Source: Polaribacter sejongensis (lineage in GTDB: Bacteria; Bacteroidota; Bacteroidia; Flavobacteriales; Flavobacteriaceae). From it: a stretch of 64,000 nt of DNA. Location: positions 1,681,501-1,745,500 of the forward strand of contig NZ_CP150667.1 in NCBI RefSeq assembly GCF_038024065.1, written 5' to 3'. Shown here one piece after another: positions 26,294-38,656 of this stretch. The position numbers and the translations under genes were made by a program. Numbering within the stretch: the stretch's first letter is position 1; each line of letters begins with the position of its first letter. A model generated the notes under the pieces. The model did not search any database. It was not told the DNA's origin and worked only from the letters and a program-made list of their open reading frames with translations.

Positions 26294-26359
26294 GCCCACG
26301 CAAAAAAAAGCGTGGTCAGGCTATCCGTTTCAAGTCCTCGTTAGTACCTCACTGTGGGC
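26294..26359. repeat. Dispersed structured repeat, rearranged copy C
   Basis: The ends GCCCAC and GTGGGC are inverted repeats, and CCACGC-A8-GCGTGG forms an inner hairpin. On the minus strand it reads GGACTTGAAACGGATAGCCT then GACC, corresponding to GGATTGAAGCGG and AAAGCCTGACC of copy A. The middle carries an insert not present in the other two copies. Confidence 0.6.
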
Positions 26360-26460
26360 TTGGAGTTTATCTTGAGCGAAGTAGAAAACCTTCTACCCTT
26401 CACGCAAAAGAACAATTTAAACTAATTCATTTACAATTAATTATACAGAAAATCCGCTTC

Positions 26461-26483
26461 GTCATTGCGAAGTACGAAGCAAT
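26461..26483. repeat. Short palindromic element (ATTGC...GCAAT)
   Basis: GTCATTGCGAAGTACGAAG followed by CAAT forms a 5-bp stem ATTGC/GCAAT. It shares the layout GTCATT..CGA...CGA..AAT with the 45-bp elements inside cusA, so it may belong to a related family. Confidence 0.45.
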
Positions 26484-26562
26484 ATTATAAAGAAAACGAA
26501 AACCAGTATCAAAAATCAAGCTTACAATTATCAAAAAAGAGAAAGAAGTAACACTCTTTTTT

Positions 26563-32302: not shown

Positions 32303-33541
32303 TTATTGAATTAAATAGTGAATACTCGTTGTTTGAATATAATAATTATAAATGGCTTCAACTTGATTCATTTGAAACTTTAATTGTAATTCCTGAATAT
32401 CTAAAACATCATTAAAATCAATCGTTCCAGTTTCGTAACTTCTAATTAAAATATCTTCTGCATCTTTTGCTTGTTGTAGGTTCTTAACCTGCGTATCATA
32501 ACTAATTCTTGCAGAAGACCGATCGTTTATTGCCTTATCTAAAAGCGTTTCTAAAGTATTGTAACGTTCTTGTTTTTGAGCTTCAATTTCTTGCTGCTGT
32601 AACTCGTTTTGTTTAGTTTTCGATTTATATTTTTTATTGAATATAGGAATAGATAAGGATACGGTTGGCATAAAAATATCTTTTCCTTTTTCACTAAAAG
32701 TGATGTCTGGTCCTGCTTGAATATTAATATAATCGAACCCAAAACCAAAGGAAGGATTACTTTCTTTCTGATTCAGAAATTCAGATTGTTCTACAGATTG
32801 AAATAGTTTGTCATATTTTAATAATTCAGGATGCAATCCTAAATTACTAGAAGTAATTTCAAAATCTTTAGAGGGCATTAGCAAAGCATCAACAACCTCA
32901 ATTTGAATATCCTTTTCTCTATTCAATAGATTATTAAAAGCCGTTTGTTCTGATAAATATTGTTGCTCTAAAACCTGTCTTAATTGCTCTAATTCATTCT
33001 GACGCATTTGCAATTTAAAAACATCAACTGCAGAAGCTTTACCAACTTCAATCGATTTTAAAGCCAACGTTTCATAGGTTTTAAGCAGTTTGCTATTTTC
33101 AATTAAAATTGCTTGTTTTGCTTTGTTTACGTATAATTTGTAATAAGACTGAGAAACGGAAACCATTAATTTTCGTTTGGCAATTACTACATCTTCATAT
33201 TTGGTGTCTGCCAAAGAACTTGCATAATTTTCGCGAGAAGTAATTGTTCCAAACCAAGGCAACATTTGTTTTGCTGATACTTTAAAACGCTGTGTTCCTG
33301 TTCTAGTTTCTGGTTCTAACACAAAATAACCTGCACTAAATTCGGTATTTGGTAATGTGTTTACTTCGTTTACCTTTTCTGAAGCAATATGATATTGTAA
33401 CTCGAATTTCTGAATTTCAGGACTATTTTCTAAAGCTTCCTTAATATAGGTTTCTAGTTCTTGACTTTGAACATTTAGAACAAAGAATAAAGAACCAAGA
33501 AGCAAGACTACTTTCTGTACGATATAATTATTATTTTTCAT
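32303..33541 (-). CDS. cusC: CusC-type outer-membrane efflux channel (TolC family)
   Basis: A signal peptide (VVLLLGSLFFVLNVQSQ) is followed by two outer-membrane efflux protein repeats rich in long amphipathic helices, for example LETYIKEALENSPEIQKFEL near the start and YETGTIDFNDVLDIQELQL near the end. Length 412 is typical. It is the outer-membrane exit duct of the CusABC pump. It sits 17 bases downstream of cusA. Confidence 0.9.
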   Translation of the reverse strand: MKNNNYIVQKVVLLLGSLFFVLNVQSQELETYIKEALENSPEIQKFELQYHIASEKVNEVNTLPNTEFSAGYFVLEPETRTGTQRFKVSAKQMLPWFGTITSRENYASSLADTKYEDVVIAKRKLMVSVSQSYYKLYVNKAKQAILIENSKLLKTYETLALKSIEVGKASAVDVFKLQMRQNELEQLRQVLEQQYLSEQTAFNNLLNREKDIQIEVVDALLMPSKDFEITSSNLGLHPELLKYDKLFQSVEQSEFLNQKESNPSFGFGFDYINIQAGPDITFSEKGKDIFMPTVSLSIPIFNKKYKSKTKQNELQQQEIEAQKQERYNTLETLLDKAINDRSSARISYDTQVKNLQQAKDAEDILIRSYETGTIDFNDVLDIQELQLKFQMNQVEAIYNYYIQTTSIHYLIQ

Positions 33542-33558
33542 GATTTGTTTTTTAAAGT

Positions 33559-36500
33559 CTATTTTCTAAGCTCTTTTCTCTTTATTCTCTTCAATTTCAT
33601 CTCTTCTCTCCAGCTATATAAAACGGGCACAATAAAATAAGAAGTGATATCAATTACCATTCCTCCAAATATTGGAATTGCCATCGGAATCATAATATCG
33701 CTTCCTTTTCCTGTGGATGTTAAAACAGGTAACAAGGCTAAAATGGTAGTTACTGTTGTCATTAAACACGGGCGAATTCGTTTTTTAGCAGCTTCTAAGG
33801 CCGAAGCTCTAATGCTCATTTTATCCGAAGGTTTTTCACGATCAAAAGTTTGTGTAAGATAGGTTGCCATAACAACACCATCATCTGTTGCAATTCCGAA
33901 TAAGGCTATAAAACCAACCCAAACAGCTACACTTAAATTGATAGTTTTCATATTGAAAAGGTCTCGCATATTCTCCCCAAAGAAACTAAAATTAAAAAAC
34001 CAATCTTGACCGTATAACCAAATCATAATAAAACCACCCGCAAATGCTACTGCAATTCCGGTAAACACCATTAATGAAGTAGTCACTGATTTAAACTGAA
34101 AGTACAGGATTAAAAAGATGATAGCCAACGCCAAAGGAACTACTATAGCTAATGTTTTTTCTGCACGTAATTGATTTTCATACGTTCCTGTGAACTTATA
34201 ACTGATTCCTTTAGGAACAATTAATTCTCCTGAATCCATTTTCTGTTGAAATAACGCTTGTGCATTTTCTACCACAGCTACTTCTGCAAAACCATCTATT
34301 TTATCAAACAATACATAACCAACTAAAAAGGTGTCTTCACTTTTTATTACCTGCGGACCTTGTTCATAACGAATCGTTGCCAACTCACTTAAAGGCACAG
34401 GACTCCCTTTTTCTACAGGAATATAAATGTCTTTAATGTCTTCTGGATTGCCACGTAATTCTCTTGGGTAACGTACACGAACTCCATATCGTTCTCGCCC
34501 TTCCACAGTTTGTGTTAAGGACATACCACCAATAGCAACCTTTAACACACTCTGTACATCTTCGATTGAAATTCCATAACGTGCTATTTTTTCTCTATCA
34601 ATATCAATCAATAAATAAGGTTTACCAACAATTCTATCGGCAAAAACAGCTTCTACTTTAACACCTTCCGCTTGTTTTAAAAGACTTTCTAGCTCTAATC
34701 CAAAAGCTTCAATTTGTTTTAAATCTTGCCCTTTTACTTTAATTCCCATAGGTGCTCGCATCCCTGTTTGAAGCATCACTAAGCGGGTTTCTATAGGTTG
34801 TAATTTAGGTGCAGATGTAACGCCTGGTAATTTGGTGACTTTTATGATTTCTTTCCAAATATCATCTGGACTCTTAATTTCTGGTCGCCAGTTTCGGTAG
34901 AATTCTCCGTCGCTGTCTTCGATAAGTTGGTTTGCTTTAATTGATGTGCCTGAAGTAATGAAACGTTTTGTTTTGTTAGCATGACCTTTATGAGATTCCT
35001 CGTCGCTCGTTCTTTGCGCTGTCGGAATGACATTCGTTTTCAATTCAAACAAACCATCCTCATTTACTTTATAACGTTGTCTTTTTCCTTCGGAGTTACG
35101 CATGTATTCAGTTTTGTATTGAATCATGTTTTCGTACATCGATAAAGGTGCTGGATCTAAAGCAGATTCTGTTCTACCAGCCTTTCCAACCACTGTTTCA
35201 ATTTCTGGAATGGTAGCAACTGCCATATCTAATTGCTGTAACACACGTTTGTTTTCTTCCACTCCAGAATGTGGTAACGATGTTGGCATCAGTAGAAAAG
35301 ATCCTTCATTTAAAGAAGGCATAAATTCTTTTCCGGTGTTGCTCATAATCCAAAATCCAGAAACAAGAACTGTAATTGGAACCATTAAAAACAACATTTT
35401 ATTCGCTAAAGCCCATTGTAAAATTTGTCCGTAATATTTTCTAAAAATAGAAAACAGTCCTAAAATTCCGAAGCAAATAATAGCAACAAAAACCAAGTTG
35501 ATTAAAATACTACGATTAAAACCTAAAGGTCTCCAATATTCAGCCAATAAAAATACAATAGCTACCGAAGAAATAATAATATTTACAAGGTTTACTTTTT
35601 TACTATCTAGTTTTCCTAAAATACCTAATAAGCCCGAAATTCCGAAAGCAACTACAATAGCACCCAACCAATAACCGCTTACTATAATCGACAGTCCTAC
35701 AATAATGATAGCACCGTTTAAGAAATGTCTAAACGATTTTTTTAGCGTTGTTTTACGGAATAAAAAAGCCGCTAAAGGAGGAATTATAAACAAAGCAATC
35801 ACTAAAGAAGCAGATAATGCCATTGTTTTTGTAAAAGCCAAAGGTCTAAACAACTTTCCTTCTGCACCAATCATTGTGAATACAGGAACAAAACTAATAA
35901 TGGTTGTTAAAACGGCTGTTAATATGGCTCCGGAAACTTCCGCGGTAGCGTTATAAATAATTTCGTTTATGGAAAGTTTGTTGTTTTGATGAGATTCCTC
36001 GTCGCTCGTGCCTTGCGCTGTCGGAAGGACATTTTCACTCTTCACTTTCTCCTCATCAAGATGACGAATCATATTTTCGGCGAGTATGACGCCTACATCT
36101 ACCATGGTTCCAATGGCAATTGCAATACCCGAAAGTGCTACAATATTTGCATCAACATTAAATAGTTTCATCGCCACAAAAACCATTAAAATAGCAACAG
36201 GTAACAAACCAGAAATTAAAATAGAAGCTCTTAAATTAAAAACCATTATAATAATCACCAAAATGGTAATTAATATCTCTAAAGTTAATGCTTCGGTAAG
36301 TGTGTCTAAGGTTTCTACAATTAATTCAGAACGATCGTAAAAAGGAACCACTGTTAGTTGAGATGTTCGTCCGTCTGCTAATACCTTCGTAGGCAAACCA
36401 CCTTTTAGTTCAGCTATTTTTTCTTTTACGTTGGTAATTACTTCCATAGGATTTGCTCCATATCTAGCAACTACAACACCACCAACTACTTCTGCGCCTT

Positions 36501-37386
36501 CTTTATCTAATAATCCACGTCGTGCTGCAGGACCTAAAGAAACTTTACCAATATCTTTAATTTTAATGGATGTAAAATCTTTTGAAGTTACCACAGCATT
36601 TTCAATATCTGCAACCGATTTTATATACCCTAAACCACGAACTAAATATTCTGCTTGATTGATTTCTAAAGTTTGTGCACCAATATCTTGATTACTACTT
36701 TTTACAGCCTTAACAACTTCACTTAAACCAATATTGTATTGACGCATCAATTCTGGATTCACATCTACCTGATATTCCTGAACATAACCACCAATAGAAG
36801 CTACTTCTGAAACGCCACTTGCAGAAGACAACGCGTACTTTACATAGTAATCTTGTATGCTTCGTAATTCTTGTAAATCCCATCCACCAGTAACATTTCC
36901 GTCTTTATCTCTACCCTCTAGAGTATACCAATAAATCTGACCTAATCCTGTAGCATCTGGTCCTAAAGCAGGATTAACACCTTCTGGTAATAATCCGCTT
37001 GGTAGTGAATTTAATTTTTCTAAAATTCGACTACGGCTCCAATAAAACTCGATGTCTTCTTCAAAAATGATATAAATACTAGAGAAGCCAAACATAGAAG
37101 AACTACGAATGGTTTTTACTCCAGGAATACCCAATAAGGAGGTGGTTAAAGGATAGGTAATTTGGTCTTCTATATCTTGTGGCGAACGACCATCCCACTT
37201 TGTGAATACAATTTGTTGATTTTCACCAATATCTGGTATGGCATCTACAGCCACAGGGTCACTTGGTAAAAAGCCTGTATTCCAATTAAAAGGAGCGTTT
37301 ACAGTTCCCCATCCTACAAAAAGGACAAGTAATAAAACCGCTACGAGTTTATTCTCTATTAAGAATTTGATGCTTTTATTTAGCAT
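33559..37386 (-). CDS. cusA: CusA-type Cu/Ag RND efflux transporter with two repeat-derived insertions
   Basis: The heavy-metal efflux RND family is clear from MLNKSIKFLIENKLVAVLLL at the start, DAIPDIGENQQIVFTKWDGRSPQDIEDQ, GIAIAIGTMVDVGVILAENMI (proton-relay Asp) and GIATDDGVVMATYL. The Met-rich LVMLQTGMRAPMGIKV suggests Cu(I)/Ag(I) rather than Co/Zn. I use the ATG at MLNKSIKF; the extra upstream codons are not conserved in type. At 1275 residues it is longer than E. coli CusA (about 1050): an extra hydrophobic block of about four helices spans roughly residues 550-665, and two 15-residue peptides (residues 452-466 and 785-799) are encoded by copies of a 45-bp repeat. The frame is intact. 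Confidence 0.95.
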   Translation of the reverse strand: MLNKSIKFLIENKLVAVLLLVLFVGWGTVNAPFNWNTGFLPSDPVAVDAIPDIGENQQIVFTKWDGRSPQDIEDQITYPLTTSLLGIPGVKTIRSSSMFGFSSIYIIFEEDIEFYWSRSRILEKLNSLPSGLLPEGVNPALGPDATGLGQIYWYTLEGRDKDGNVTGGWDLQELRSIQDYYVKYALSSASGVSEVASIGGYVQEYQVDVNPELMRQYNIGLSEVVKAVKSSNQDIGAQTLEINQAEYLVRGLGYIKSVADIENAVVTSKDFTSIKIKDIGKVSLGPAARRGLLDKEGAEVVGGVVVARYGANPMEVITNVKEKIAELKGGLPTKVLADGRTSQLTVVPFYDRSELIVETLDTLTEALTLEILITILVIIIMVFNLRASILISGLLPVAILMVFVAMKLFNVDANIVALSGIAIAIGTMVDVGVILAENMIRHLDEEKVKSENVLPTAQGTSDEESHQNNKLSINEIIYNATAEVSGAILTAVLTTIISFVPVFTMIGAEGKLFRPLAFTKTMALSASLVIALFIIPPLAAFLFRKTTLKKSFRHFLNGAIIIVGLSIIVSGYWLGAIVVAFGISGLLGILGKLDSKKVNLVNIIISSVAIVFLLAEYWRPLGFNRSILINLVFVAIICFGILGLFSIFRKYYGQILQWALANKMLFLMVPITVLVSGFWIMSNTGKEFMPSLNEGSFLLMPTSLPHSGVEENKRVLQQLDMAVATIPEIETVVGKAGRTESALDPAPLSMYENMIQYKTEYMRNSEGKRQRYKVNEDGLFELKTNVIPTAQRTSDEESHKGHANKTKRFITSGTSIKANQLIEDSDGEFYRNWRPEIKSPDDIWKEIIKVTKLPGVTSAPKLQPIETRLVMLQTGMRAPMGIKVKGQDLKQIEAFGLELESLLKQAEGVKVEAVFADRIVGKPYLLIDIDREKIARYGISIEDVQSVLKVAIGGMSLTQTVEGRERYGVRVRYPRELRGNPEDIKDIYIPVEKGSPVPLSELATIRYEQGPQVIKSEDTFLVGYVLFDKIDGFAEVAVVENAQALFQQKMDSGELIVPKGISYKFTGTYENQLRAEKTLAIVVPLALAIIFLILYFQFKSVTTSLMVFTGIAVAFAGGFIMIWLYGQDWFFNFSFFGENMRDLFNMKTINLSVAVWVGFIALFGIATDDGVVMATYLTQTFDREKPSDKMSIRASALEAAKKRIRPCLMTTVTTILALLPVLTSTGKGSDIMIPMAIPIFGGMVIDITSYFIVPVLYSWREEMKLKRIKRKELRK
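34990..35034 (-). repeat. 45-bp element inside cusA, copy 2
   Basis: It matches the copy at 35989-36033 at 42 of 45 bases, including 21 identical bases from the left end. In the cusA frame it encodes NVIPTAQRTSDEESH, in a large periplasmic-loop region of the pump. ATTCC and GGAAT near its ends are inverted repeats. Confidence 0.85.
35989..36033 (-). repeat. 45-bp element inside cusA, copy 1
   Basis: It encodes NVLPTAQGTSDEESH, in frame, in the hydrophilic loop after the helix ending ILAENMIRHLDEE. It differs from copy 2 at three bases, two of which change residues. Confidence 0.85.
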
Positions 37387-37494
37387 TGGTTTAATTATTA
37401 AACAGTTAGACATTGGTGTTAAAAAAAACACCGAATACAAGAAATTATCCCAATGAGATTAATCACAGGATAACACAGTCTTTTTGTTTAAAAA

Positions 37495-37908
37495 TTAAAT
37501 TAAATAAGTCTCGTCTAACTTAAATATTTGCCTGTTAGCGAGCAGAGGTTCGTACTCTCCAGATGAAGGTACATTATTTTCTAAACCTTCAAAAAGGTTG
37601 ATATAAGAATAAATAAATGAAGCAATGAATACTTGTTGCTCAAAAGAAATGCTATCAATATGATGTTGTAATTCATTTTGACCTTCAACAACTACTTGTT
37701 CGTCATTACAGCAGTTCTTTTTTGAAATATTACAATCTTCAGATAAAGGTTTTTGCATTTCCATACCACAACCTTCTGCTTTTTGAAACATAGCTGTTTC
37801 TACCAAAGTATCACCACAATAATGCATACTAAAAGTCAATGACATTGTAGAGAATAGGACTACAACAGCCATTGCAATTGACATTATTTTATGTGAAACT
37901 TTCTTCAT
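37495..37908 (-). CDS. HYC_CC_PP-type small envelope protein of the copper cluster
   Basis: A short protein (137 residues from this start) with a hydrophobic N-terminus (MAVVVLFSTMSLTFS) followed by the motifs that name the family: MHYCGD, then NCCND, and a PSSGEY segment near the end. Cys, Met and His content (GCGMEMQ) suggests metal binding. Such genes commonly accompany copper systems in Bacteroidota. A longer frame starts 21 bases upstream but its extra codons run over a perfect -7 box (TACCTTTG), so I prefer MKKVSHKIM. It is first in a row with cusA, cusC and the HMA-AraC gene. Confidence 0.75.
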   Translation of the reverse strand: MKKVSHKIMSIAMAVVVLFSTMSLTFSMHYCGDTLVETAMFQKAEGCGMEMQKPLSEDCNISKKNCCNDEQVVVEGQNELQHHIDSISFEQQVFIASFIYSYINLFEGLENNVPSSGEYEPLLANRQIFKLDETYLI

Positions 37909-37916
37909 ATTGGCCG

Positions 37917-37942
37917 CAAAGGTATACAAAATTAAAGAACAA
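37917..37942 (-). promoter_or_regulatory. Promoter of the HYC-cusA-cusC unit
   Basis: The minus strand reads TTTTG, 15 bases, then TACCTTTG. The -7 box ends nine bases before the chosen ATG, predicting a leader of only a few bases. Confidence 0.5.
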
Positions 37943-38656
37943 AATATTAGTTAAGAAAAATTTAACTGAAAACAAGACAACTGACTTTCATAAATGTATC
38001 CCTATATTTTATTTAAAATCAGACATCATTCATTTAGAGAGTTTAGCGTAAAAAAGCAAGCCATATATTTACAAACATAAAAAACTCACACAACCTAGGT
38101 TAAAAAATCAGCGACAGTATATTTAAATCGAAATGTCTTTAATAAAAATAGATTGAAGAAATAATGTAAATTTCGTAAAATTGAAATTTAGCACAAAAAC
38201 AGTTCAAATTATTTTACGTCCTTCTAAACGGATAAAAGTATTTTTGACAGGGATAAACAATAATTTTTATATTTAACCTGTTTTTCTTTAATCCTATAAA
38301 GTAGCACCTCGATAATTATATCAATTGCATTTTTAAAATTCATTTCAGAATTATAACGAAATGTACTTCTTTATTTATTGATAAACGTCCATTTTTACTT
38401 ACTAATAAGTTTATCTATATTTAAAGTTGTTTGTTTTAAGCTTACTCCACAATCTTTTGCTTTAACAATATTTCCGTTATTCCATTATGTTTCAAAATAA
38501 CTAGGGTACCCCATAGGGTAACTGTCACATGCTTTTTAAGGAGATTAAGATATTATCTATTTGATCTAAAAATTCTTAACTCTAATAAATTATAAGGTGA
38601 ACTCAGTGTTTATAAAGGTTTAAGAGATTTAACCATCCTAGAATGTGATGTATAAA
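37943..38656. other. Gene-free AT-rich region between the copper cluster and tRNA-Ser
   Basis: I find no credible ORF, RNA gene or long repeat in these roughly 700 bases. The only local oddity is a GC-richer patch around 38500-38520 with AGGGTA twice. A degraded gene or an unrecognised small RNA cannot be excluded. Confidence 0.4.

Follow-up and report, generated by a model that had tools for sequence, protein, structure and literature searches.

The window analysed here is a stretch of 64,000 nucleotides from Polaribacter sejongensis, the genome of which is a single contig of 4.5 Mb. At 33559..37440, on the minus strand, the window carries cusA, a 1293-codon ORF for an RND-type heavy-metal efflux pump (copper/silver; Pfam ACR_tran, E 1.7e-185). 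The true start of the gene is probably the ATG at 37384-37386. The E. coli CusA structures 3k07 and 3t51 match the product with E about 2.5e-189. Outside two loops, cusA and the gene of the nearest relative (genome G135) are identical at 95.6% of the amino acids but at 74% of the four-fold sites, so that cusA is, judging by its pattern of substitutions, conserved as a working protein. The two loops vary among homologues, and were delimited by alignment as loop 1 (35962..36060, minus strand, 99 nt) and loop 2 (34930..35037, minus strand, 108 nt). Their assignment is based on the alignment with E. coli CusA rather than on a structure model. Loop 2 falls where the E. coli protein has almost no sequence (residues 640 to 642); loop 1 presumably lies between helices TM4 and TM5, going by the general layout of RND pumps. 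A structure prediction of CusA residues 30-1225 from 37 sequences was too poor for use (mean pLDDT 42); in it both elements described below fall in stretches without regular structure.

Each loop includes one copy of a short repeat, called A. The copy in loop 1 (35989..36033, minus strand) encodes NVLPTAQGTSDEESH, that in loop 2 (34990..35034, minus strand) encodes NVIPTAQRTSDEESH. The two segments are identical at 42/45 nucleotides and are read in the same frame. Their coordinates, sequences, frame and peptides had been reported in an earlier note on this DNA, and are correct as given there. The best identity between 45-mers in each of 20 codon-shuffled versions of cusA is 28-30, and the real pair is the longest of 16 direct-repeat families detected within 33000-38000 (48 bp, 92%, spacing 999). 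The odd base composition mentioned in the note is real as well: GC measures 0.49 and 0.56 in the segments, 0.356 in cusA and 0.317 in the window, and the two values are attained by 4.0% and 0.5%, respectively, of the 45-nt windows of cusA.

A is a REP-like, TGTC-tagged family (TGTCATTCCGACAG...GACGAGGAATCTCA), found also between genes and in other genes, in P. sejongensis as in relatives. The pattern GATTCCT N6-36 GGAANGAC occurs at 53 sites in the P. sejongensis genome, two of them overlapping, and its reversed control at none. Only 4/53 sites lie within ORFs of at least 120 codons: the cusA pair, another in an ORF of 272 codons which has no Pfam match, and one in an ORF starting inside the element. 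Five close copies of A were counted, three of them outside cusA. Intergenic copies are the rule, as the earlier note had supposed from the style of the sequence, though some reside in other genes. When up to 3 mismatches are allowed, A is found at 65 places in 25/29 genomes, selected mainly as carriers of A in cusA (control 0); by coordinates, 26 places are in cusA and 39 outside. Four of the 34 outside places that were inspected fall within ORFs of at least 120 codons, three encoding a mutase and one an E2 acyltransferase. The strict A pattern has matches in 12/31 genomes, and its reversed control has none. In six of these (G001-G004, G017, G019) the sole match is the cusA copy, which implies that A need not originate within those genomes. 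Two tandem arrays, with a 129-bp unit repeated 5.7 and 8.7 times, are present elsewhere on the P. sejongensis contig (L137, 2306-3034 and 3425-4557; C1, ~723.3-725.6 kb), and each unit harbours a pair of A-type elements facing opposite ways, as in BIME clusters.

The window hosts one further intergenic repeat, taken by the earlier note as a shorter relative of A at 26461-26483. The sequence is actually CGTCATTGCGAAGTACGAAGCAATA, at 26460..26484 on the plus strand; it is no A copy, and resembles family B (GTCATTGCGAG...GAAGCAATCTC). Ahead of it, at ~26352-26385, TATCTTGAGCGAAGTAGAAAACC resembles a worn E-type repeat.

The content of the two loops has been sorted in a chosen sample of 130 CusA loci, which correspond to 122 distinct rows, and the fractions given here describe that sample alone. 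The sample unites the top 80 out of 579 named loci with 50 same-genus matches (30 best, 20 chosen), that of the window included; the same-genus set includes genomes with a cusA DNA core identical to Tenacibaculum ovolyticum and Polaribacter marinus records. Loops are either empty, or occupied by A, or by other repeats, which at loop 2 are B, C, E and the palindrome F. According to the second of two classifications, A resides at loop 1 in 24/122 rows; loop 2 features A in 6 rows, B in 15, C in 8, E in 18 and F in 2, and 54/122 rows have a repeat in either loop. Homologues lacking A at loop 1, which the earlier note had indicated as a check on insertion, are common (100/122 rows in the first classification, 98/122 in the second). 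Empty and filled states can be directly compared at loop 1, which measures 36 nt in L114 and L128 and 81 nt in L083, the 45-nt surplus containing A. More complex states have been found in L159, where an E-like repeat is nested in C, in L142, where A is trimmed in frame, and in L170, where half a C element precedes A. In most rows the offset within the loop is nearly constant for each family (A 14, B 16, C 41, E 47). In cusA, the A, B, C and E repeats start with TGTC, F does not. At the loose threshold, labels of family D are chance matches except in L117, and some G labels are likewise due to chance. A low-complexity AAGTGAAAAGTGGAAAGTGAAGAG-type stretch ahead of A lengthens loop 1 in L051, L143 and L170. 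In L167 (G071) loop 1 contains the hairpin TTCCCACGAAAGTGGGAATC, read in frame, which we take to resemble the CGTC-1 type of REP.

B, C and F likewise recur across genomes. B elements, with variable interiors, were found in 18/28 genomes (control 0); the cusA version of B occurs once per genome in 8 genomes, at positions agreeing with cusA. C resides in 14/14 genomes, with 24 copies in P. sejongensis (control 0), and F in 9/18 genomes, with 15 copies in P. sejongensis (control 0), none of which lies in an ORF of 120 codons or longer. F replaces A at loop 2 in the nearest relative, G135, CusA of which is 94% identical. The G135 genome contains 10 F copies, that one included, the cusA element being one or two letters away from the nine others; one of 8 other copies inspected is near the start of a 453-codon ORF. 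F copies are often paired ~350-495 bp apart, as in G000 (C1:2736444/2736939), G135 (C1:2882884/2883377) and G092 (C1:2819059/2819412 and 3712793/3713281). As a genome-wide repeat, E is weakly attested: a pattern covering also C has 7 sites in P. sejongensis, none exactly of the E type, and two exact E-type sites outside cusA were found among the four other genomes.

The palindromic nature attributed by the earlier note to the window copies is weak at best. Their outer arms are ATTCC/GGAAT (5 bp), and the DNA fold z scores, -0.36 and +0.24, show no marked hairpin in either. Palindromic character is found in the A dimer of relatives, in C and in F, the latter being perfectly palindromic (z -8.9). 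Some rows carry an inverted partner after A, as L052 and L055 do at loop 2 and L077 and L160 at loop 1; this 74-nt A dimer of relatives is bounded by inverted ends of 8 bp, and its fold is better than that of shuffled sequences (z -2.9 and -3.3). Because the dimer folds and single A does not, the copies in the window look like half dimers, probably left halves.

Repeats were identified in other host proteins. A is found in the ORF of a fused methylmalonyl-CoA mutase in P. sejongensis, G135 and G064, and in an E2 acyltransferase ORF of Winogradskyella pacifica. In 31 fused mutases (the 30 best-scoring loci and L197), loop 2 contains at least one repeat family in 16/31, and loop 1 a palindrome, H, in 10/31. 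In 620 codon-shuffled mutase loops, the same thresholds gave 1 match, to the inverted partner, and none to A, B, C, E or H. B, the inverted partner and A are stacked in loop 2 of the P. sejongensis mutase (L251, C1:3758561-3761599), loop 1 of which has palindrome H (CCTTCCC.AAGGGAAGG) after GMIND. Among the 112 E2 linkers that could be parsed from the 120 best listed, A-like peptides were found in 9, SSAVE in 25 and VTLSAVE in 6; the linkers were judged from protein letters, except L206, which was checked in DNA. The three forward frames of A are open, as is one of the three reverse frames. Even so, all five host sites (the two loops of CusA, the mutase, E2, and the 272-codon ORF) read A in a single frame, and the chance of this, if frames were equally acceptable, is about (1/3)^4 = 0.012. 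The peptide that is tolerated would be the hydrophilic, acidic one.

The DNA of A is unusually conserved. Third positions are identical at 0.86 in the 24 loop-1 carriers (276 pairs), a figure inflated by the choice of carriers on similarity to the consensus; in 1064 windows of 13 codons from the rest of cusA the mean is 0.60 (sd 0.056, maximum 0.768). Whole-A identity is 0.87-0.88 between carriers with cusA third positions 50-70% identical, and 0.91-0.93 between nearer carriers. Coding constraint at the level of the peptide is insufficient alone to account for this; insertion after divergence, exchange, or constraint on DNA would suffice. The earlier note had held that diverged codons and no other genomic copies would speak for an internal duplication of ordinary type; the codons of A turned out to be unusually conserved.

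Fresh insertion appears not to be the only source of change within cusA, whole loops being exchanged as well. L053 and L052 are 98-99% identical in the regions flanking loop 2, but the loop itself contains B in the former and the A dimer in the latter (aligned loop identity 0.55). Four distant rows have B loops that are 0.81-0.88 identical to the one in L053, although their near flanks match those of L053 at just 0.62-0.72. The window gene and its nearest relative have near flanks identical at 0.88 and 0.87, and loop 2 at 0.39 (A versus F). On a FastTree tree built without the loops, with 43/119 inner branches drawn open, no fewer than 12 changes are needed for A at loop 1, and 36 changes of state for loop 2 (34 in the first classification). 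Insertion and recombination not being separable in these counts, they measure turnover, not the number of insertions. The named genes closest to cusA of the window, among the best 80 of 579 named loci, are from Winogradskyella, while the chorismate synthase of the window is closest, among named matches, to that of Polaribacter (92%), then of Tenacibaculum (88%). The discrepancy suggests transfer of cusA between genera, and metal-efflux genes may possibly be horizontally transferred.

Taken together, the data make it highly probable that both segments are copies of A, residing in frame in permissive hydrophilic loops of CusA and predicted to be translated within the pump. The proposal of a mobile element which tolerates being translated is supported by the dispersed copies, by the empty and filled loops and by the conserved codons. 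REP-like elements would be rarely inserted by some mobilising activity. Insertions breaking the frame or harming the protein would be lost, which may explain why most copies are intergenic, and survivors would be those in loops tolerant of changes in length, later decaying by in-frame deletion and passing between cusA genes as whole loops. Tolerance of the A peptide, as opposed to selection for some task, is most likely. Among the compared homologues, none was caught in the act of gaining an insertion, and no target-site duplication was legible by eye in the A-rich flanks of their loops.

The same segments could have arisen by ordinary internal duplication, one cusA loop segment being copied to the other and then inherited, without any repeat element. 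Several genes carry A at both loops, and the window copies share variants at 39/42 positions, being about as close as are the loop-2 copies of other species (38-40/42); but A copies outside cusA, carriers of A at a single loop, and the occupation of the same loops by other families contradict such an origin, which is extremely unlikely. Ancestral loop-to-loop copying starting from a repeat may have occurred. A could also be kept for a role at the DNA or RNA level, as binding site or RNA structure, as its third positions, far more conserved than those of the gene, would allow. This seems very improbable, since single A has no unusual fold, other repeats substitute for it, and most sampled homologues do without. 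A known RNA family for A was also discarded, as the single Rfam match in 33500-37500 is below the curated cut-off and elsewhere in cusA.

A serious contender, a little short of an even chance, is a weaker form of the favoured explanation, according to which a few old insertions were followed by horizontal transfer of cusA and by short exchanges of loop cassettes, recent transposition being scarce or absent. The loop swap between the nearly identical flanks of L052 and L053, with a B cassette like that of distant rows, is what recombination would leave. The cusA version of B, a single copy of which resides at cusA in every one of 8 genomes, and a relatedness among cusA genes which does not track genus, point the same way, and the near-constant offset of each family within the loop favours few insertions, then spread. 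Against an account by recombination mostly, the F element in G135 cusA is within one or two letters of the nine other F copies of that genome, and several repeat families are found in unrelated genes; insertion, accordingly, does occur.

Insertion of A in frame has counterparts among known repeats. Rickettsia palindromic elements (RPEs) are described as dispersed repeats, found both between genes and in frame within conserved genes, to which they add a peptide, with several families per genome (PMC10969869, PMC3733652). The comparison with RPEs made in the earlier note holds as a working principle: to judge from these descriptions, A is similarly found in frame in conserved genes, homologues of which lack it (CusA, the mutase, and partly E2). 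The hosts belong to another phylum, however, A measures 42-75 nt and RPEs are given as about 150 bp, the A copies in the window are scarcely palindromic, and here different families fill the same loops across species. Two RPE families, RPE-4 and RPE-6, are listed as shorter CGTC REPs (PMC3733652). CGTC/TGTC REPs are described in the same survey as mostly intergenic, with some intragenic, as having no dedicated transposase, and as including Bacteroidetes among their hosts; the string 'Flavobacter' is absent from its main text. As there outlined, they share with A the TGTC end (CGTC and CCTC being the other termini of the super-family), A-T first stem pairs, inverted dimers and a mostly intergenic location, but feature stems of 8-9 bp and loops of 4-5 nt, whereas the stem of A measures 5 bp and its interior is long, and A ends with GGAATCTCA rather than with a CCA-like tail. 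Dispersed and mostly intergenic copies, as in CGTC-tagged REPs, are many also for A (4/53 sites in ORFs of at least 120 codons); 8-9 bp stems are missing, as the 8-bp ends of the dimer are not those of a single REP unit, and A is therefore called REP-like rather than assigned to the super-family. GTAG REPs mobilised by RAYTs are, in the accounts given, also short dispersed repeats, often in inverted pairs (PMC3733652, PMC2817692), and two Y1 transposase genes reside in the P. sejongensis genome. A lacks the GTAG tag, however, and the repeats do not flank the Y1 genes: a link to a Y1/RAYT transposase was rejected, as four stretches of 2.5-3.2 kb scanned around both genes contain no exact match to the A, B, C, D or F patterns.

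In-frame REPs and RPEs are already known; what is newer is that different families occupy the same loops. One comparable case, different REPs at about the same site in recB of two Xanthomonas, is mentioned in PMC3733652. A literature search, covering titles and abstract openings and with subscription journals mostly outside, found no repeat-encoded inserts in proteins of Flavobacteriaceae. Rickettsia is the best-known source of palindromic repeats that encode protein, while REPs within genes have been noted in scattered instances. In cusA, by contrast, a single gene provides dozens of sites that are naturally filled, empty or swapped, in marine bacteria available in culture. With these sites one can test by what means REP-like repeats that lack a known transposase are moved, and whether new protein segments are regularly supplied by non-coding repeats. 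For the Flavobacteriaceae, a broader reading is evenly poised: several unrelated REP-type families may feed segments into the same few permissive loops (two in CusA, two in the fused methylmalonyl-CoA mutase, and one E2 acyltransferase linker), where they would be inserted, nested, trimmed and exchanged, in a continuing renewal across the family. The presence of different families in the same two CusA loops of related bacteria suggests that repeats of this kind give rise to new protein segments time and again.
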